Part shown: positions 14,811 to 46,138 of the stretch, piece by piece | How the letters are laid out: the number at the start of each line of letters is the position of its first letter | Position numbering within the stretch: the first letter of the stretch is position 1 | Source of the DNA: Phycisphaerales bacterium | GTDB taxonomy: Bacteria > Planctomycetota > Phycisphaerae > Phycisphaerales > SM1A02 | Direction: 5' to 3' | Length of the DNA: 47,199 nucleotides | NCBI GenBank assembly: GCA_020345805.1 | Contig: CP070772.1 | Location: 1-47,199 of the forward strand | Program-made: the position numbers and the translations under genes | The notes under the pieces: model-generated | Database searches by the model: none | Seen by the model: the letters and a program-made list of their open reading frames with translations, nothing else | What the model was told of the DNA's origin: nothing

Positions 14811-15305
14811 ATGAACCACTCCACCTCCCCACTGCCTGTGAGCCAATCGGCATCATCGCCACCCGAGGCGGTATTGTCGGAGCCCTGCCGCGCCTACCGG
14901 CGGTGGTTCGGGAAAGCCACGACCCGAGTCGCCTGGCTCGCCCTGATTGTCGCCGTCGTGCATCCGCCGCACGGCCTGGGATTGCCGATCTGCTGGCTGC
15001 GAACCACCACCGGCCTGCTCTGTCCCGGCTGCGGCATCACCCGCAGCATGAGCTGCGCCGTGCGCGGCCTGTTTGAGCAGAGCTGGCAGTATCACCCCTT
15101 CGGCATTCTGCTGCTCGCCTTCTTCTGTCTTGCCGCCGCCATCAGCCTGCTGCCTCCACGGCGGAAAGTGCGCCTGGCCCGGTTCATTCAGCGTCACGGA
15201 CGGCCCGCGAGCGTGCTGCACATCGCGCTTATCACCGCCTTTATCGTCTTCGGAGTTCTCCGCGCGGTGGTCCACGTTCTCGGCGGCCAGTTTATCGCAG
15301 CGTGA
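14811..15305 (+). CDS. DUF2752 family membrane protein
   Basis: 164 residues. The family signature LCPGCGITRS lies at 70-79 with Cys71 and Cys74, followed by AVRGLFEQSWQYHPFGIL. Hydrophobic segments lie at about 40-52, 105-125 and 140-158. DUF2752 proteins are small membrane proteins of unknown function, common in Bacteroidota and Planctomycetota. The ribosome site AAAGGACT and a 9-bp gap indicate cotranscription with the zinc-ribbon gene before it. Confidence 0.85.
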   Translation: MNHSTSPLPVSQSASSPPEAVLSEPCRAYRRWFGKATTRVAWLALIVAVVHPPHGLGLPICWLRTTTGLLCPGCGITRSMSCAVRGLFEQSWQYHPFGILLLAFFCLAAAISLLPPRRKVRLARFIQRHGRPASVLHIALITAFIVFGVLRAVVHVLGGQFIAA

Positions 15306-15413
15306 TCGTGCCGCCGGCGACCCGTAGAGGTGCCCGGTGGCTCATCACGTGGTCGCAGAAACATCGTGACACCGGGATGGGGCCCCTGATACCCTATGGG
15401 GGTTCAGGCAGTG

Positions 15414-15429
15414 TACTGCACGTGCAGTA
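15414..15429. promoter_or_regulatory. 16-bp perfect palindrome before the NosD/kelch gene
   Basis: TACTGCACGTGCAGTA is its own reverse complement, lies 22 bp before the ATG at 15452 and 108 bp after DUF2752, and is followed by TTTTT (15431-15434 plus preceding T). It can be read as an operator in the leader, or as a short stem (TACTGC/GCAGTA, loop ACGT) with a T tract acting as terminator of the upstream cluster. Confidence 0.5.
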
Positions 15430-15451
15430 TTTTTGGGGTCGACTCGTGAGT

Positions 15452-18073
15452 ATGAAGACCACGACCTCCAGTCCGACGAAGCACGCGCCTGCGGTCATGC
15501 TCGCGGCATCCCTGGGCCTGATCTCGGCCGCGCCGGGCGCGGATCCCGTCATCCCCACCGACGGAATGATCATCACCGAGGACACCACCTTCCTCCCCGG
15601 CAGCTACAACCTCCCCCACGGCGTTTCCATCGGAGCCGACAACGTCACGCTGGACATGAACGGCGCCCACCTCATCGGCGACGAGTTCAACAACTACGGC
15701 CTCACCTGCATCGGCCATTCCAACGTCACCATCAGCGGCGGCGCCATCAGCAACTACTACTACGGCCTGCGCATCGAGGACGGCGCGAACATCCACATCC
15801 TCGGCAATGACCTGTCACTGAACTGGCTCGATCCGGATTCGCAAACGCCGAACGCCCCCTGGCTCAACATCAACGTCGGACCGGGCAATCTGGGTGATCG
15901 CACCAATCTCGGCGGCGGACTGTTCATGCACAACGTCACCGCCGCCGTCATCTCCGGAAATACCCTGCGATGCGAAGAGAACGGCATGGACTTGTTCATG
16001 GTCCACGACTGCCACATCACCGACAACGACGCATCCGACAACACCGGCTGGGGGATCCATCTCCACGCCTCAACCGGCAACACTATCGAGAACAACGTCG
16101 CCGACCGCTGCATCCGCCCGGGGCTGGGCGATTCGTCCGGCGTGCTGCTGGTGATGTCCAGCCACGACAATCACGTTCTCGGCAATTCGTTCCAGTACGG
16201 CGGCAACGGGTTCTTCATCGGAAACGAGGGCGGCTGCCCCAGCAACTTCAATCTTATCGAGAGTAACGACGGCTCCTTCGCCGGAGCCAACGCCTTCGAA
16301 GCAACTTTCTCCCAGGGCAATCAGTTCATCTCCAACATCGCCTTCGGATGCAATTACGGCTTCTGGCTCGGCTATTCACACTCCGGAAACCTTCTCAAGA
16401 ACAACACCATCAAGGCGAACAACATCTGCGGGATAGAAATCGAGCACGGACAGGCAAACACCATCGAGGGCAACATCATCATCGGCAACGGCGGGCGGGG
16501 GATCTTCCTCCGCACCGACGGCCAGGTCCATTTCCCGCCCGATTCCTTCCCCTGCCTCGAGTTGCCGAACCAGGCAGCATCTTCCGATTACCTCATCCGG
16601 GACAACATCATCCGCGCAAACTTCGGCCCATCCATCGAAATGACCAACACCACCGACAGCATCATCATCAACAACCTCATCGACGGCTGCTTCGGCAACT
16701 CCGTCATCTCCAACGGGCCCAACAACATCTGGGCAATCGAACCCACCCCCGGCGAGAACATCATCGGCGGCGCACTCCTCGCCGGCAATTACTGGTCCAA
16801 CTACACCGGTGAAGACACGAACAACGACGGCGTAGGCGATACCGACCTGCCCTACGACAACAACGGGCTGATCGCCCCGCCCGGCGATCCGCATCCCCTC
16901 GTCGGGGATCCCGGCGAAGTGGACTGGCACAACCCCCCCACAATTTGCGATCGGTATTGGATCGATCTGGGGCCCAATACCCGCGATGACGAATCCACTT
17001 TCGAAACATCCAACGGCACGCATTTCGCCACCGACGGGACCGACCTCTATCTTCTGGAAAGCTCCAACTCCGACCGGTTCGACCGGTTTGATCCGGAAAC
17101 CGCGCATTATATCGCGCTCACGCCGCTTCCAGAGCCGGCACAGGACGGCTCGGACCTGCAATACGGCGACGGTCTCTATTACGCAGCAGTGGGAATTCAG
17201 TTCAATCCCAAGGACGGCAGCGGCAGCGGCACCCGTCTCTACGCCTACGATCCCGCGCTCGATCAGTGGGAGCGGCGAGCGGATGCGATCATCGACGGTG
17301 AACCCGTCGCCACCGAGGCGCTCGCTTACGACCCGGGCAATCAGCGCCTCTACGCAACGATCGTCCAGACCATTCGCCGCGGCGATCCCGCTCTCCTCCG
17401 CAAGCTTGCCGTTTATGACCCGGCAACTGATGAATGGACCGGCACAACCGCCGACAGCGGTGCCGAGTTTTCATCCGCCTCGGAACTGGAATACCTCGGT
17501 GGCAGGATCTATGCCTGGCCCGGCGGCTGGGCGGGCGGGGCGGCGAGCGGGGCCGATTCCTTCCTTCATGTATATGACACCGTCACGGATACCTGGTCTG
17601 TGACACCGTCGCTGCTGGATTCCGGCGTGATGCCCGGCTTCCGCAGCGGCGCACTCGACGTTTGGGGCGTCACCCTCACCGCAGATCACCTTCGGAAACT
17701 GCTTTGCCTCATCGGGGGCGAGGCGAACCGCGTCCTCTATGTCTATAACCCATTGAATGAAACCTGGAAGACCGGCCCGCTGACCGTCTACGACGGCGGG
17801 TGGGGCGCGGGCCTCGAATACGTCCAGTCAACCGAGACGCTGTACCAGATCGACGGCCGCAATGCTGCGAACACCACCCAGGGCACCGCCGCCATGTTTC
17901 GCCGCACCGGCGATGTAGATTGCGACGGCGTGGTGCGCATCGATGACATTTTCGATGTTCTCGGCGCGTGGGGCCCGTGCGATGATCCCGTCAACGAGTG
18001 CCCCGCCGACGTCAACCTCGACGGCAAGGTCGATATCGACGACCTCTTCGAGGTGATCAATAACTGGGGATGA
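15452..18073 (+). CDS. secreted parallel beta-helix (NosD-like) / kelch / dockerin protein
   Basis: 873 residues from ATG 15452 (a GTG two codons earlier is an alternative; the longer frame from 15302 lacks a signal peptide). Residues 1-34 are a signal peptide. About 40-480 is a right-handed parallel beta-helix of the NosD/periplasmic copper-binding type (GNDL, GNTLRC, NNVADRC, ESNDGS rungs). About 515-800 resembles kelch propeller blades (YDPALDQWERRA, YDPATDEWTGT, YDTVTDTWSVT, YNPLNETWKTG). The last about 53 residues are a dockerin with two calcium loops (DCDGVVRIDDIFDVL, NLDGKVDIDDLFEVI). Such beta-helices often bind or cleave polysaccharides; no catalytic site is identified. It heads a run of dockerin genes. 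Confidence 0.88.
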   Translation: MKTTTSSPTKHAPAVMLAASLGLISAAPGADPVIPTDGMIITEDTTFLPGSYNLPHGVSIGADNVTLDMNGAHLIGDEFNNYGLTCIGHSNVTISGGAISNYYYGLRIEDGANIHILGNDLSLNWLDPDSQTPNAPWLNINVGPGNLGDRTNLGGGLFMHNVTAAVISGNTLRCEENGMDLFMVHDCHITDNDASDNTGWGIHLHASTGNTIENNVADRCIRPGLGDSSGVLLVMSSHDNHVLGNSFQYGGNGFFIGNEGGCPSNFNLIESNDGSFAGANAFEATFSQGNQFISNIAFGCNYGFWLGYSHSGNLLKNNTIKANNICGIEIEHGQANTIEGNIIIGNGGRGIFLRTDGQVHFPPDSFPCLELPNQAASSDYLIRDNIIRANFGPSIEMTNTTDSIIINNLIDGCFGNSVISNGPNNIWAIEPTPGENIIGGALLAGNYWSNYTGEDTNNDGVGDTDLPYDNNGLIAPPGDPHPLVGDPGEVDWHNPPTICDRYWIDLGPNTRDDESTFETSNGTHFATDGTDLYLLESSNSDRFDRFDPETAHYIALTPLPEPAQDGSDLQYGDGLYYAAVGIQFNPKDGSGSGTRLYAYDPALDQWERRADAIIDGEPVATEALAYDPGNQRLYATIVQTIRRGDPALLRKLAVYDPATDEWTGTTADSGAEFSSASELEYLGGRIYAWPGGWAGGAASGADSFLHVYDTVTDTWSVTPSLLDSGVMPGFRSGALDVWGVTLTADHLRKLLCLIGGEANRVLYVYNPLNETWKTGPLTVYDGGWGAGLEYVQSTETLYQIDGRNAANTTQGTAAMFRRTGDVDCDGVVRIDDIFDVLGAWGPCDDPVNECPADVNLDGKVDIDDLFEVINNWG

Positions 18074-18196: not shown

Positions 18197-18260
18197 CCGG
18201 TCGGGTGGGCTGTTTGTGTCGTCTGATCGTCAGGTGGTTGAACAGGGAAAGGAGACCTCC

Positions 18261-19589
18261 ATGCGAGTCTGGAACCACGAGAGATGCGGCAACTACGCGG
18301 GGCTTTTGGCCGCGGCGATTCTGTTCGCCGCCGCCGGGCCGACGGCCGTGGCCAAGACCGTTTATGTCGATGGCGTCAACGGCAACAACGACTGGGACGG
18401 ACTTTGCGAAGAATGGGACGGCGGAACCTGCGGACCGAAGAAGACCTTCCAAGCCGGGATCGCCGTCGCGGTAGACGGCGACGAGGTCATCGTCGCCGAT
18501 GGGGTCTATACCGGCGAGGGCAATACGCGAATCGAGTATTACGGCAAGGCGATCGCGATTCGCTCCGCCAACGGCCCCGCCAACTGCATAGTTGACTGCG
18601 AAGGCAGCGACCAGCCCGCCATTCGAATCGAGGGCGTGGTCTCGGGCACCGCCATCCTGGACGGCTTCACCGTAATAAACTGCGGCGCGTGCTGAGGGTC
18701 GGGCACCATTGACTGCTGGTACAGCAGTGCGACCATCCGGAACTGCATCCTCACCGACAACACAACCGTCGGCATGTCCATCATCAACGCCAGCCCAACC
18801 GTCAGAAATTGCCATTTCGAGAACAACGCGGGCGGCGGGATCTTTTGCGGTCAATACGGGGCCGCACCGCTGATTGACGCTTGTACCTTCCGCGGGCATC
18901 CCTGGTCGGCCATCAACTGTGGTGACTCCGCTCCGACCATCACCAACTGCCTGATAACGGACAACGAAAGCGCGGAGCCCGGAGCGGGCATTTTCCTGTT
19001 TGAAAGCGACGCAACAATCTCCAACTGCACAATCGTGAACAACTCCGCAGTGTACGGTGCGGGCGGGATATACTGCATGTTCAGCTCGGCGACCGTGGTC
19101 AACTGCGTAATGCGCGGCAACCTGCCAACCGAGATGAGCGGCGGCGGCACGACCGCGACTTACTGCAACATTGAGGGCGGCGAGCCGGGCGAGGGAAACA
19201 TCGACGCCGACCCGCTCTTCGTCGATCCGGACAACTACAACTTCCGCATCGGGCCAGGGTCGCCCTGCATCGATGCGGGCGACAATTACGCCGTTCCCGA
19301 TGATGTCGATGCGGACCTGGACGGGAACCCGCGCTTCGTGGACGACCCCGCCACGGTGGATACCGGCAACGGCGAGCCGCCCATCGTGGATATGGGCGCT
19401 TACGAATTCCAGGGCGAGTCATGCCCCGCGGATTTGAATGGTGACGGGATTGTCGACATCGACGACCTTTTTCAGGTTCTCAGCGCGTGGGGGTCGTGCG
19501 ACGAGTGCCCGGAGGACATCAACGAAGACGGCACCGTGGACATCGACGATATCTTCGCCGTTCTCGCCAGCTGGGGGCCGTGCCCTTGA
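18261..19589 (+). CDS. secreted beta-helix/dockerin protein with in-frame UGA (putative selenoprotein), twin A
   Basis: 442 residues if the TGA at 18693-18695 (codon 145) is read through, probably as selenocysteine. Start: AAAGGAG before ATG 18261; signal peptide to about residue 31 (AVAKTVYVDG). Residues 35-330 are beta-helix rungs (GFTVINCGAC-U-GSGTIDCW, ATISNCTIVNN, GAGGIYC). About 345-380 is the closing CIDAGD...VDMGAYEF of choice-of-anchor-Q beta-helix proteins. Residues 388-442 are a dockerin. After the TGA the same frame stays open to 19589, and homology to two paralogues starts at the very next codon, before any new ATG (first at 18774). A SECIS-like hairpin follows the UGA. The alternative, a true stop with reinitiation, does not explain the conserved codons in between. 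Sec machinery is not in the window. Confidence 0.85.
18693..18734 (+). promoter_or_regulatory. UGA plus bacterial SECIS-like hairpin, gene A
   Basis: TGA 18693-18695, 16-nt spacer, stem ACTGCTG (18712-18718), loop GTA, stem CAGCAGT (18722-18728). An outer pairing GGTCG (18697-18701) with CGACC (18730-18734) is possible. The UGA-to-loop distance of 23 nt and a G in the first loop position fit the general bacterial SECIS rule. Confidence 0.75.
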
Positions 19590-19717
19590 GCGACTGATCA
19601 GGCGGTCGAGCCGCTGTAGAAAGGGAGTCCGGGCGCGGCAGGACCCCACAAGTTGGCTGCCTGTTGCCCCGAAGGTGCGTTTTTGCATTTCTCCCGTTCG
19701 CCCCGGGTGCCATCCAT

Positions 19718-19723
19718 TACAAT
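19718..19723 (+). promoter_or_regulatory. candidate -10 element TACAAT of the 19787 gene
   Basis: TACAAT lies 64 bp before the ATG, at the place where twin A has TAGAAT. The leader from here to the ATG is also similar (GTGGTTGAACAGGGAAAGGA is shared), so promoter and leader were duplicated along with the gene. Confidence 0.5.
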
Positions 19724-19786
19724 GCGGGTGGGTGGGCGGTTCGTGTTGGCTGATCATTAAGTGGTTGAACAGGGAAAGGAGACCGC

Positions 19787-21115
19787 ATGCGAGCCTGGAA
19801 CCACAACAGATACGGTAACTGCGCGACGCTGCTGACCGCGGCGATTCTGTCCGCCGTCGCGGGACCGGCGGCGGTGGCCAAGACCGTCTACGTCGACGGT
19901 GTCAACGGCAACAACGACTGGGACGGACTGTGCGAGGAATGGGACGGCGGGACCTGCGGGCCGAAGAAAACCATTCAACACGGAATCACCGTCGCCGTTG
20001 ACGGCGATGAGGTCATCGTCGCCGATGCGGTCTATACCGGCGAAGGCAATACGTTCATCCAGTACTACGGCAAGGCGATCACCCTGCGCTCCGCCAACGG
20101 CGCCGCCGGCTGCATAATTGACTGTGAGGGCAGCGAAGACCCCGCCATTCACATCGAGGGCGTGATCTCGGGCACCGCCATTCTGGACGGCTTCACCGTG
20201 ATAAACGGCGGGGCGTGCTGAGGGTGGGCCACCATTGACTGCTGGTTCAGCAGTGCGACCATCCAGAACTGCCTCATCGCCGACAGCGCCACCGGCGCCA
20301 TGTCCATCATGAGTTCCAGCCCGACCGTGAGGAACTGCCATTTCGAGAACAACGCCGGCGGCGGGATCTATTGCGGTGATGAGGGATTTGTGCCGCTGAT
20401 AGACGCCTGCACCTTCCACGGAAATTCCTGGTCTGCCATCGACTGCTGCGGCTCGTCCCCGATCATCACCAACTGCCTGATAATGGACAACCAGAGCTCG
20501 GAAGTCGGAGGGGGCGTCTACGTGGCCCGGGCCGATGCGACAATCTCCAACTGTACCATCGTGAACAACACCGCGGCGTACGGCGCGGCGGGGGTTTACT
20601 GCATCGACGGCACGGCGACCGTGGTCAACTGCGTCCTGCGCGGCAACCTGCCAAACCAGGTAAGCGGCGGCGGTACGACCGTGACTTTCTGCAACATTGA
20701 GGGCGGCGAGCCCGGCGAGGGAAACATCGACGAAGACCCGCTGTTCGTCGATCCGGACAATCACAACTTCCGGATCTCGCCCGGTTCGCCCTGCATCGAC
20801 GCCGGCGACAGCACGTCGGTGCCCGCCGGCATCATCACCGATCTGGATGGAAACGCCCGATTCGTAGATGACCCGGACACCCCGGACACGGGAATCGGGT
20901 TTCCCTGCGTGGACATGGGAGCTTACGAGTTCCAGGCCGATTCATCCTGCCCCGAAGACGTCAACGGCGATGAAATCGTGAACATTGACGACCTATTCCA
21001 GGTCCTCAGCGCGTGGGGAGCGTGCGACGAGTGCCCGGAGGACATCAACGAAGACGGCACCGTGGACATCGACGACATCTTCGAAGTCCTGGCCAACTGG
21101 GGCCCGTGCCCGTGA
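19787..21115 (+). CDS. secreted beta-helix/dockerin protein with in-frame UGA (putative selenoprotein), twin B
   Basis: 442 residues with the TGA at 20219-20221 (again codon 145) read through; exactly the same length as twin A. Signal peptide to about residue 31; beta-helix rungs; GFTVINGGAC-U-GWATIDCW at the UGA; closing CIDAGD...VDMGAYEF; dockerin at 388-442 (VNGDEIVNIDDLFQVL, NEDGTVDIDDIFEVL). Identity with twin A is about four-fifths by eye. Amino-acid changes are spread over both sides of the UGA, and the part after it is as well conserved as the part before, which argues that both halves are translated as one protein. AAAGGAG precedes the ATG. The substrate or partner is unknown. Confidence 0.85.
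20219..20254 (+). promoter_or_regulatory. UGA plus bacterial SECIS-like hairpin, gene B
   Basis: TGA 20219-20221, 16-nt spacer, stem ACTGCTG (20238-20244), loop GTT, stem CAGCAGT (20248-20254). The stem is identical to gene A and only the last loop base differs, changing Tyr to Phe in the protein. The outer pairing seen in gene A has one mismatch here. Confidence 0.75.
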
Positions 21116-28480: not shown

Positions 28481-31438
28481 TCACGGACGCGCGCCGTTGA
28501 GGAAGGCCGTGATGTCATTCTCATCCAGCCATCCGTCGTGGTTGAGGTCCGCCACGACCAGGTCGGCCATGCCGAGCCTGACCAGCTCGGCCACCGAGAT
28601 GCGGGTTACCGGTCCCATGCCGGCATCGGCCCGCGGCGTCTTGGTCGGGGACAGACCCTTGGAGCAACCCTCGTTCTGAGACAGGAAATTGATCTGAATG
28701 AAACTGAAGTCCTCGGTTCCGACCGTCCCATTGCCGCTGATGTCGGCGTGGGGATAGGGCGTCGAGCAGTCCGTGTTGCCCGTCCCGTAGTCTTTGCCGT
28801 ACTCGCCGACATAGACGCCGAAGTCGAGGATGTCGATGTAGTCGTTGTACACCACGCCGTTGAGGTTGCCTCCGAGCAGGTAGTCGGGGTCGGTCACCGT
28901 CGCCACGTATTGGGTGCCGACGATGGTGAAATCATCAGCCTTGCGCTTCAGCGTGTGCAGGCCGTCGCTGACGAGCAGGCAGTCATAGTCACCACACGGA
29001 ACTTCGACCATGACGTCATCGGCATAGCCGCCGGTGAACGTGATCACCTCGCTCCAGGTATCGGTATCCGGACCACTTAACTCGAACGTGATGCAACGTG
29101 ACAGCGGCGTGTCCACGGTCGGCTGAAGCCCGATGTCCATGACCAGTTCGTTCTTGTCACTGACGGTGACGGTGAAATCGACATAGTCTTCTTCGCCGCA
29201 GTCATCCCAGGCCAGGACTCTGACACGGTGCGTGCCGCTCGGGAAGGTGTACCAGGGATCACTGATCGTTGCATCTACAGCCCAGTCGTTGTACAGGTCG
29301 ATCTCGTAGTCGACGTACGTCGTGTCACAGCAGCCATTCACTACCACCGCTGCGTCCCAGGATACGAGCGCCGTGCAGCCGCCGGCCTCGGCGTTCACCG
29401 AGACGGCTGAGTAAGCGCCGTCGTTATCGATGTAGGGCGCAATGGTGCTGAAGGTAGCAGTCGCCGTGGTCTCGACGTAGAGCCCGCACGGATCGGTGGC
29501 GCGGAATGTCACATCCACGTAGCCTGCCGTACAGCAGTACACTACGAAGTTCGCCGGATCGTAGTCATTGCTCCACACGACGCCACAGGCATCGTACGCG
29601 TCGGCGCCACCGTTGAGGAGCAGCCAGTCGTTGAATGGGACGTCATCCAGACAGAGGTACGCGACATTCATGGCTGGGGCGGTTAGTGACGGCGCGGTCT
29701 GATCGGTGGAAATCGCGTACAGATCCGTCAGAGTCGGGTAAATCGGGATCCCGCCCGGCTCTGACAGCATCGAGGGCGGCTCGTGCGCGGTGTCAAACTG
29801 AACCAAGTCGGCTTCGGAGCAGACTTCACTGGCGACGTCGAACGTGAGGGTCGCCATCCTGGTGGCCTGGTTCGTGTAGCCGCCGAACGGGTCGCCCACC
29901 GAAATGGCGATCGTGCCGGCTCCGGGATCGTGATCCCAGTAAACCACGGTATCAAACGGGTAGTCGCCCGCGGAGTGACCTGCATAGGTCAGCACCGTGT
30001 TGTCGTAAGTGAGGAAGAACTGACCGCCCGCGACCTGCTTGGCCATGTCCGGCATGTCGATGGTGACTTCCACCTGGCCGCTCGTGTTGCACGTCGGGGC
30101 GTTCAACGGCACCTCCGGCGGGCTTGAGGGCGTCATCGTCACGTGATAGTTGCCCTTGGCGACCTCCTCGATGTTCAGATAGAAGCCGGGCAGTTCAAGG
30201 GGGACTACCTCGACACCCCAGCCGCAGTCCCAGTCCCAGGCACCACCGCCGCCGCCGTGCGCGGCGCTGCCGTCGTGCCCTCCGTCCTGCGTGCCCAGGT
30301 CCGTTTCCGCCGCGTACATCGTGTCCCAGTCCATGGTGCCGGACATGGGCGATTCGCCCGTGGGCGCATAGCGCAGATACCAGTGGTCCGCGGTCAACTC
30401 AAGTTCGAACATGCCGTAGTCAGCGCAGTCGGGATCGTACCAGCTTCCCCACGGCCCGCCGCCCTGCTGCGAGGGATAGGCGTCGTGACGAGGCCCGATG
30501 ACGAACGTGTCGTTGTCTCCAGGCGGATAGTTGTCGTTCCACCAGCCCGTGCCGTAGTAGCCCTGGACGTATGCCACGCCGCCTTCTTGTGCAAGCACAT
30601 CGAAGCCGCCGCCGGTGGAGATGTGTTCCCCGTCACCGCCGGCAACGTAGTAGGATCCCGCCGTCATGGGGATGGTGCCGGTGAGGGCCGGACCCTTGGC
30701 GCTCAGTTCACCTTCGAACTCCATGGTGCCTGAAGCGGCGGTGTTGGCCCACGGCGTCAGCGAGATGTCGTACTCTCCGCCGCCGAGATCCGTGATCTGG
30801 ACCTCGAAGCCGGGCATCTCCAGAGGTACGACCTCGCTGCCCCAGCTCCAGTCCATGTCCCACGCGCCCGCCCCACCGCCGTAGCCGGCTGCTCCGCCGG
30901 GAATCTCCGGGGTCCCGGTCCCCGGCAGATACGCGCCGGTATCGGTCTCCAGAGCGTACATTCGGTCCCAGTCCATGGTGCCGGACATCGGAACACCCAT
31001 GGGAGGCTTTCCACCGGCACCCCAATATGCCTCGTCATACCAGGGGTGGTCTTCGGTGGCGCCGGGGTGGTTTCGGACCGCCCATCTCAGCACACCCCCA
31101 TCCACGTACAGGTTCAGGCTGTACTGATACCAGTCGGGAGTATCGGGAGTCCAAGTGGGCCAGGCATCGTGGGAGGCGATGGTAACGGAGGTCCAGATCG
31201 GACCTCCACCCGAATCGTCCCCGAACCAGGCGGTGGCCCCGTTCTTACCGTAGACGTCATAGCCGGCGTCTGGTGCGCCTTCATCGATCATGGCCACCAC
31301 ACCGCTGTATACACCTCCTCCCTCATCCGTCAACTCCCCATGAAAATACATGGTGGATGAAGGCACATTGCTCGCACCGGCAATGCTCCCGCAGAGCGCA
31401 AGAGCAAGACCGGCAGTGATTGCTGTTGTTCGTCTCAT
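28481..31438 (-). CDS. large secreted cohesin-like protein 2 with duplicated N-terminal domain
   Basis: 985 residues. Signal peptide MRRTTAITAGLALALCGSIA to about 22. About 25-225 and 235-445 are two copies of one domain: both contain MSGTMDWDxMYAxETDxG, a Gly-rich GGxGAWDxDxxWGxEVVPLE, then LPGF or MPGF and an ITDLGGG or IEEVAKG segment. About 455-590 is a cohesin-like fold (VAGGQFFLTYDNTVLTYAGH ... DPGAGTIAISVGDPFGG). About 600-740 are two HYR-like domains with many Cys. About 745-985 is the C-terminal module shared with the flanking genes, ending DLNHDGWLDENDITAFL. No enzyme motif is seen. The shared modules and same direction suggest expansion by duplication. Confidence 0.83.
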   Translation of the reverse strand: MRRTTAITAGLALALCGSIAGASNVPSSTMYFHGELTDEGGGVYSGVVAMIDEGAPDAGYDVYGKNGATAWFGDDSGGGPIWTSVTIASHDAWPTWTPDTPDWYQYSLNLYVDGGVLRWAVRNHPGATEDHPWYDEAYWGAGGKPPMGVPMSGTMDWDRMYALETDTGAYLPGTGTPEIPGGAAGYGGGAGAWDMDWSWGSEVVPLEMPGFEVQITDLGGGEYDISLTPWANTAASGTMEFEGELSAKGPALTGTIPMTAGSYYVAGGDGEHISTGGGFDVLAQEGGVAYVQGYYGTGWWNDNYPPGDNDTFVIGPRHDAYPSQQGGGPWGSWYDPDCADYGMFELELTADHWYLRYAPTGESPMSGTMDWDTMYAAETDLGTQDGGHDGSAAHGGGGGAWDWDCGWGVEVVPLELPGFYLNIEEVAKGNYHVTMTPSSPPEVPLNAPTCNTSGQVEVTIDMPDMAKQVAGGQFFLTYDNTVLTYAGHSAGDYPFDTVVYWDHDPGAGTIAISVGDPFGGYTNQATRMATLTFDVASEVCSEADLVQFDTAHEPPSMLSEPGGIPIYPTLTDLYAISTDQTAPSLTAPAMNVAYLCLDDVPFNDWLLLNGGADAYDACGVVWSNDYDPANFVVYCCTAGYVDVTFRATDPCGLYVETTATATFSTIAPYIDNDGAYSAVSVNAEAGGCTALVSWDAAVVVNGCCDTTYVDYEIDLYNDWAVDATISDPWYTFPSGTHRVRVLAWDDCGEEDYVDFTVTVSDKNELVMDIGLQPTVDTPLSRCITFELSGPDTDTWSEVITFTGGYADDVMVEVPCGDYDCLLVSDGLHTLKRKADDFTIVGTQYVATVTDPDYLLGGNLNGVVYNDYIDILDFGVYVGEYGKDYGTGNTDCSTPYPHADISGNGTVGTEDFSFIQINFLSQNEGCSKGLSPTKTPRADAGMGPVTRISVAELVRLGMADLVVADLNHDGWLDENDITAFLNGARP

Positions 31439-44734: not shown

Positions 44735-46138
44735 ATGGTGTTCAGGAGACTTCCGGGGAGGGGTAGGCTTCCGGGGGCGGGAGGGTTTCGATTCAGCGCG
44801 GTGATCTTCGCCTTGGCGATGCTGGCTTCAGCCGGCACCGCGGGGGCGGCCAAGACGGTCTATGTGGACGGCAAGAACGGCAACAACGCCTGGGACGGCC
44901 TCTGCGAGACCTGGGACGGCGGCTCCTGCGGGCCCAAGAAGACCATTCAGGCCGGCATCAATGCCGCCGTCAATGGTGATCAGGTACTCGTCGCCAACGC
45001 CGTTTACGCCGGGGAAGGCAACACTGACCTCAACTTCTTCGGCAGGGCAATCACCCTGAAAAGCATTAACGGACCCGACTACTGCATCATCGATGGCACC
45101 GACGGCGAGGACCCCGCCTTCCGCTTCGAGTACGGAGAGGAGGCGGACACCGTCCTGGACGGCTTCACCATCACCAACTTCCGCCCCTGCTGAGGGGCCA
45201 GCACCATCAACTGCTGGTCCAGCAGTCCCACCATCCAGAACTGCGTCCTTCTTACCAACATCCTCGGCAGCATCGACTGCTTCAGCGCCAGCCCCATCAT
45301 CAAAGATTGCGTCTTTGACTCCGACGACATGTACGCCATCTCCGTCTGGGGCGAGGCCGCCGCCCCCTTCATCGCCTCCTGCACATTCATCGGCAATGAC
45401 TGGTTCGCCGTCGACTGTTACGGCGGTAACCCCACAATCATCGGCTGCGTGATGGTCGACAACGGCGGCATCTACGGAGGCGGGGGCATCAGCATTCAGA
45501 GCGGCAGCGCCACCATCACCAACTGCACCATCGTCGAGAACTTCGCCGACACCAGCGGCGGCGGAATCATCTCCGTCGGCTCCGAGGTCCGCGTGGCCAA
45601 CTGCATCGTCCGCAACAACACGCCGGCAGAGATCTCCGACGACGGGGCGATCGTGACCTACAGCAACGTGATGGGCGGCAACGACGGAGTGGGCAACATA
45701 GATGCCGATCCCGTCTTCGCCGACCCGCACGGCCGCGACTTTCGTCTTATGCCCGGCTCGCCGTGCATCGACGCCGGCTTCAACAACACGCTGCCCCGCG
45801 ATCGTAATGACCTCGACGGTGACGGTCTCGCCTGCGAGCGCTTTCCCGTTGATCTCGACGGCAATCCGCGTTTTGCCGATGACGCGGCGACCGCCGACAC
45901 CGGCTGCGGCCTGCCCGTGGTCGTGGACATGGGGGCTTATGAATGTGCCGGCGCAACCTCGGATGTAATCTACGCCGATGTCGATGGCAGCGGCGCGGTG
46001 GACATCCTCGACCTCTTCGCGGTGCTGGACAACTGGGGCCCCTGCGAAGGCTGCTGCATCGGCGATGTGCACCTGGATGGCGTGGTGAGAATCGACGATG
46101 TCTTCGCCGTGCTCTCCGCCTGGGGACCGTGCCCCTGA
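44735..46138 (+). CDS. secreted beta-helix/dockerin protein with in-frame UGA (putative selenoprotein), gene C
   Basis: 467 residues with the TGA at 45191-45193 (codon 153) read through. Signal peptide of about 39 residues (basic N-terminus, then FALAMLASAGTAGA), giving KTVYVDGKNGNNAWDGLCET as in twins A and B. At the UGA: GFTITNFRPC-U-GASTINCWSS. The rest follows the twins: beta-helix rungs, CIDAGF...VDMGAYEC, and a dockerin (VDGSGAVDILDLFAVL, HLDGVVRIDDVFAVL). It is clearly more diverged than A from B and lies 24 kb away, yet keeps Cys-UGA-Gly and the hairpin. The homologous sequence continues for 45 codons after the UGA before any ATG, so reinitiation cannot account for it. Confidence 0.85.
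45191..45226 (+). promoter_or_regulatory. UGA plus bacterial SECIS-like hairpin, gene C
   Basis: TGA 45191-45193, 16-nt spacer, stem ACTGCTG (45210-45216), loop GTC, stem CAGCAGT (45220-45226). The spacer and the codons around it have changed (for example Asp to Asn just before the stem, Ala to Pro just after it), yet all 14 stem bases are those of genes A and B. Confidence 0.75.

Follow-up and report, generated by a model that had tools for sequence, protein, structure and literature searches.

At the start of a planctomycete chromosome, three paralogous genes for secreted proteins are each interrupted by one TGA at a homologous codon, which raises the question of whether this codon ends the protein or is translated. 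The window analysed here comprises the first 47,199 bases of contig CP070772.1 of a Phycisphaerales bacterium (GCA_020345805.1; genome G000), whose assembly is a single scaffolded contig of 3.94 Mb with 100-N gaps and 79.9% completeness. A preliminary description of the window had placed one in-frame TGA, always after a Cys and before a Gly codon, in each of the three genes. Direct translation confirmed a single internal in-frame stop per gene at the homologous codon, in the contexts GAC-U-GSG, GAC-U-GWA, and RPC-U-GAS. S1 (18261-19589, + strand; internal TGA at 18693-18695, +) is predicted to encode 442 residues including selenocysteine (Sec) at position 145, comprises a signal peptide, a right-handed beta-helix, a choice-of-anchor-Q-like region, and a GC-type dockerin, and terminates at a TGA at 19587-19589. 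Its tandem paralogue S2 (19787-21115, +; internal TGA at 20219-20221, +; predicted Sec-145) is 76% identical to S1 and also has a dockerin and a terminal TGA, as does, with a dockerin-like C-terminus, the more distant paralogue S3 (44735-46138, +; internal TGA at 45191-45193, +; predicted Sec-153; 51% identity to S1). The frames stay open to the dockerin, as had been described, and end at 19589, 21115, and 46138; the dockerins of S1 and S2 score above the 29-bit cut-off of NF041540 (33 and 29.4 bits) and that of S3 below it (13.6 bits). The leaders of S1 and S2 are near-identical (tggttgaacagggaaaggagac; 18200-18290 and 19700-19810, +), so the duplication takes in the upstream region. Directly upstream of S1 lies a gene for a large NosD/beta-helix and Kelch protein with a dockerin-like end and no internal TGA (15302-18073, +).

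A search of the parent genome recovered a fourth paralogue, S4, 2.8 Mb away (G000:C1, about 2811731-2813905), which is full-length with 724 residues, 56% identical to S1, carries Cys-TGA-Gly at the homologous codon, and has a C-terminus that is dockerin-like as judged by eye. S4 was absent from the preliminary description, as were a hairpin behind the internal TGAs and the fact that all four genes end at an ordinary TGA stop. The read-through products of S1-S4 have lengths of 442-724 residues, and ordinary gene calling cuts each of the four genes in two. Among the matches listed for other beta-helix relatives in this genome, none has a TGA at the homologous codon.

The sequence downstream of the TGA evolves as coding sequence. 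Pairwise dS among S1-S4 is 0.34-1.14, and dN/dS is 0.31-0.46 upstream of the TGA and 0.32-0.58 across the 225 codons downstream of it, where in-frame stops number zero as compared to 6-11 in each other frame, and about 890-1740 nt run without a further stop or frameshift. The downstream halves are under purifying selection, and from this and the lack of in-frame stops it follows that they are translated in the same frame. Homology had been said to resume at the codon after the TGA, and residues G146, T149, I150, C152, and W153 are indeed invariant from that very codon onwards; the accompanying statement that the genes are not decaying is borne out by the same dN/dS values. A programmed +1 frameshift was considered and rejected because homology picks up again in the same frame. 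The TGA codon is unchanged in the four copies while synonymous sites have turned over (dS up to 1.1), and Trp is encoded by TGG eight codons past it in each gene.

Behind each of the four internal TGAs, the sequence ACUGCUG-GUN-CAGCAGU can pair into a hairpin with a 7-bp stem, a 3-nt loop, 23 nt from UGA to loop, and -8.1 kcal/mol. It occurs as ACUGCUG-GUA-CAGCAGU in S1 (18712-18728, +), ACUGCUG-GUU-CAGCAGU in S2 (20238-20254, +), and ACUGCUG-GUC-CAGCAGU in S3 (45210-45226, +). The published bSECIS model (PMC13188914 Fig. 2A) specifies a stem of 4-16 bp, a loop of 3-9 nt, a spacing of 16-37 nt, a G at loop position 1, 2, or both, and an MFE of -7.5 kcal/mol or lower, and the S1-S4 hairpin lies within every one of these limits. 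In about 86 kb of the G000 sequence, just 1.3% of TGA triplets have a Watson-Crick stem of at least 7 bp with SECIS geometry behind them. The pattern at the internal TGAs is beyond chance, because four diverged genes keep the TGA exactly and stems of this geometry are rare. No SECIS-type hairpin stands behind the TGAs that end these four genes (best stem 2 bp), and it is also missing from 18 of 18 UGA-free homologues that share the C..SS coil coding motif (best stem at most 5 bp).

Near the UGA, six of seven conserved residues are encoded by an identical codon in all four genes, compared with 45 of 146 in the remainder (p = 0.006); the Ser-Ser pair is AGC-AGT in all four (expected 2.3%), although the hairpin and codon counts are not independent, since S1-S4 share an ancestor. 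A covariance model of the site, run against the 23 genomes with tRNA-Sec, scored the four genes at 84-88 bits and the next match at 25 bits. The hairpin is nearly invariant among S1-S4 and therefore offers no covariation to test. MFE z-scores calculated over 71 nt did not discriminate, S1 and S2 being no lower in energy than shuffles. With a 42-nt region folded alone, an alternative fold (CCAGCA-UGCUGG) in S3 and S4 is 1.6-5.2 kcal/mol more stable.

The genome encodes most of the machinery for Sec decoding. We identified tRNA-Sec (selC; 70.3 bits, UCA anticodon), selB (324 bits over the N-terminal 273 positions, where a 100-N assembly gap cuts the gene), and selD (351 bits; G000:C1, about 3609.5-3610.5 kb, corresponding to L029 5495-6499), with selB about 1 kb further on from selD. 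The selD gene itself has an in-frame UGA within the motif NCSGUAGK, at the site known to be occupied by Sec in SelD proteins, followed by a bSECIS-like hairpin with a GGU loop at 32-nt spacing from the UGA, and is a built-in positive control for the decoding of UGA as Sec in this organism. The search for Sec genes proposed in the preliminary description thus succeeded for tRNA-Sec, the truncated selB, and selD, and failed for selA, for which the gapped, 79.9% complete assembly gave no match to TIGR00474 or PF03841. The absence of selA is weak evidence, because 19 of 22 relatives having tRNA-Sec also have selA and because the assembly is interrupted by 100-N gaps. No selA remnant was recognised in the 101 nt that separate tRNA-Sec from the assembly gap next to it, and selA is therefore not placed in that particular gap. 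Genes for tRNA-Sec are uncommon in this genome's neighbourhood (23 of 261 genomes, G000 counted).

The four UGAs, the hairpin, the downstream selection, and the genes for tRNA-Sec, selB, and selD were seen directly in the sequence or computed from it; we infer Sec insertion, export, anchoring, and Cys-Sec chemistry. S1-S4 very probably represent a new family of secreted selenoproteins whose internal UGA is read as Sec by standard SelB/SECIS decoding, and selenocysteine, favoured from the outset as the best-known local recoding of UGA, is supported by the four paralogues, the hairpin, and the machinery. The internal UGA would be decoded by Sec-tRNA(UCA) carried by SelB, which would bind the GU-loop bSECIS hairpin, whose loop starts 24 nt past that codon; the UGA at the end of the reading frame on this mRNA, having no such hairpin behind it, would lead to termination. 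The signal peptide is expected to direct export, and the C-terminal dockerin would probably tether the exported product.

UGA is the leakiest stop codon, and its read-through without selenium, leaky or programmed, by a near-cognate tRNA-Trp or another tRNA, would yield a minority of long, dockerin-bearing protein that could equally account for the selection downstream. Such read-through does not predict a hairpin of bSECIS geometry, yet one is present at the internal TGAs and missing from the terminal TGAs and the UGA-free homologues; the short product would amount to a signal peptide and an incomplete first part of the beta-helix; and the genome has a Sec machinery that few of its neighbours possess, so that we regard this explanation as improbable. 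Less probable still is that S1-S4 are pseudogenes in which a single nonsense mutation of the ancestral gene (e.g., a change from GGA to TGA within the loop) was multiplied by duplication. The limitation of the UGA form to one genome and the tandem arrangement of S1 and S2 would fit such a history, but the downstream dN/dS largely refutes it: the 225 downstream codons have acquired no more stops or frameshifts, the dockerins are intact, and the TGA has persisted in four copies despite their synonymous divergence.

Two further readings leave the UGA as a true stop or make it a sense codon throughout the genome. If termination were followed by reinitiation, each mRNA would give two polypeptides, and the window copies do contain in-frame ATGs downstream (+27 in S1, +27 in S2, +46 in S3), in line with the 26-45 codons given in the preliminary description. 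We consider this very unlikely, because the invariant residues begin at the very next codon, the ATGs are distant (the first in S4 is 159 codons away), and no Shine-Dalgarno sequence precedes the downstream ATGs of S1-S4, unlike the true starts (AAAGGAGA etc.). Genome-wide reassignment of UGA to a sense residue has nothing in its favour but the internal UGAs themselves, and is already refuted by stop usage: TGA, earlier described as a normal stop elsewhere in the window, ends 10 of the 13 other long window ORFs inspected in addition to all four genes, and Trp is encoded by TGG. We assign it a negligible probability.

The distribution of the site was analysed with a 72-residue site-specific profile, because full-length searches were too generic, with beta-helix repeats matching everywhere. 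The profile was applied to overlapping samples of 23 tRNA-Sec genomes, 397 genomes of the class, and 392 genomes from the phylum, the best 14-15 candidates per genome being scored in the latter two. Within this scope, an in-frame TGA was found only in the four G000 genes (E near 1e-37), and the next matches (E near 1e-15) had open frames. The UGA form was detected neither in the 22 other tRNA-Sec genomes nor among 201 relatives nor, at the same sampling depth, in the class and phylum samples, and the expectation that other planctomycete genomes would show UGA at the aligned position was accordingly not borne out. Homologues had also been expected to have UGA or Cys, and not TAA or TAG, at this position; neither TAA nor TAG occurred at the homologous codon, but in the homologues seen the aligned residue was never Cys, being Gly or a variable loop residue instead. 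Among GTDB contigs, an N-terminal profile found one relevant Phycisphaerae homologue, without the UGA, while viral contigs gave no homologue match and plasmids only distant ones (26-29%). Two beta-helix homologues (G065:C91:1116-1568 and G019:C16:238257-238973) have one in-frame TGA each, at other positions; these probably reflect decay or sequencing error, and no tRNA-Sec is listed for either genome.

Because the homologues lack Cys at the site, Sec looks like a lineage-specific gain that had no Cys ancestor and was followed by duplication. Judged from these alignments, the direction of change appears to have been gain and not loss of Sec, and we lean towards a de novo gain, without ancestral Cys, in a turn of a secreted dockerin-bearing beta-helix protein of one planctomycete lineage, with spread to four copies by duplication. 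As the UGA form occurs in one genome only, conservation rests on paralogues with a shared ancestor, and these could be homogenised by gene conversion. The usual comparison of Sec/Cys pairs lends no support here, and the argument for the selenoprotein family consequently rests on the SECIS hairpin, the decoding machinery, and the occurrence of the UGA in four paralogues.

Beta-helix assignments are provided by PF13229 (Beta_helix) for S1 (E = 2.7e-22), S2 (4e-15), and S4 (6.8e-19), while S3 is unmatched. In an AlphaFold model of S1 with Cys in place of Sec (mean pLDDT 78, pTM 0.71), residues 144-145 lie in the short turn that links strands 137-139 and 148-153 near the beginning of the helix. 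The top solved-structure match of the model is Pel9A (1ru4; E = 6.7e-6, TM about 0.5), and beta-helix polysaccharide lyases in general (Pel9A, PL6 alginate lyases) are its best structural matches. At 16% identity the lyase match is a generic fold match that does not point to lyase activity. The Cys-Sec dipeptide also occurs in other predicted selenoproteins (SaoC, SaoL, HgcA, SaoB), and metal or metalloid binding is suspected for some of them (PMC13188914). The Cys-Sec pair in the tight beta-helix turn of S1-S4 probably functions as either a redox-active selenenylsulfide or a ligand pair for a soft metal or metalloid, with the former perhaps slightly preferred. The window also encodes a 984-residue protein (28481-31438, - strand) that matches cohesin weakly (PF00963, E = 1.8e-4, slightly short of the cut-off) and is a possible partner for the nearby dockerins.

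Cys homologues exist for nearly all selenoproteins, most of which are redox enzymes. If our interpretation is correct, S1-S4 would place a Cys-Sec centre outside the cell, on a repeat-protein scaffold that belongs to none of the known redox folds, and would be a case of Sec emerging in a new scaffold with no Cys precursor. Search methods based on Sec/Cys pairs would miss such genes, and the Phycisphaerae would be a promising lineage in which to look for unknown selenoproteins. A 2026 inventory lists 119 prokaryotic selenoprotein families or subfamilies, among them no beta-helix, choice-of-anchor-Q, or dockerin family (PMC13188914 Table 1), and NCBIfam 20.0 has no selenoprotein model for the S1-S4 proteins. 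The earlier statement that choice-of-anchor-Q-like beta-helix selenoproteins are unreported holds as far as this inventory and the family libraries reach. Full-text searches for selenoproteins together with dockerin, right-handed beta-helix, or Planctomycetes returned no relevant paper, and in the literature searched no selenoprotein was described that carries a dockerin.

Decoding would follow the standard mechanism; the novelty lies, as far as we can tell, in the protein family and its scaffold. S1-S4 share their fold, repeat motif, and C-terminal region with choice-of-anchor-Q and right-handed parallel beta-helix proteins (PF13229, NF041518), but differ from the homologues seen, which have neither Sec nor Cys at the loop. 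With GC-type dockerin-anchored proteins (NF041540) they have the C-terminal dockerin in common, above the curated cut-off in S1 and S2. Like bSECIS-decoded selenoproteins such as formate dehydrogenase and SelD, they combine an in-frame UGA, a small loop starting with GU or GG 16-37 nt downstream, and tRNA-Sec/SelB/SelD, whereas most known members are enzymes of redox function or thioredoxin fold that have Cys homologues, and S1-S4 are beta-helix proteins for which no Cys homologue was found. The CU-motif selenoproteins SaoC, SaoL, HgcA, SaoB, MbdU, and KCU-star (PMC13188914 Table 1) have the same adjacent Cys-Sec pair; we found no relation to them in sequence or fold, and in S1-S4 the C-U-G motif lies inside the turn of a secreted beta-helix.
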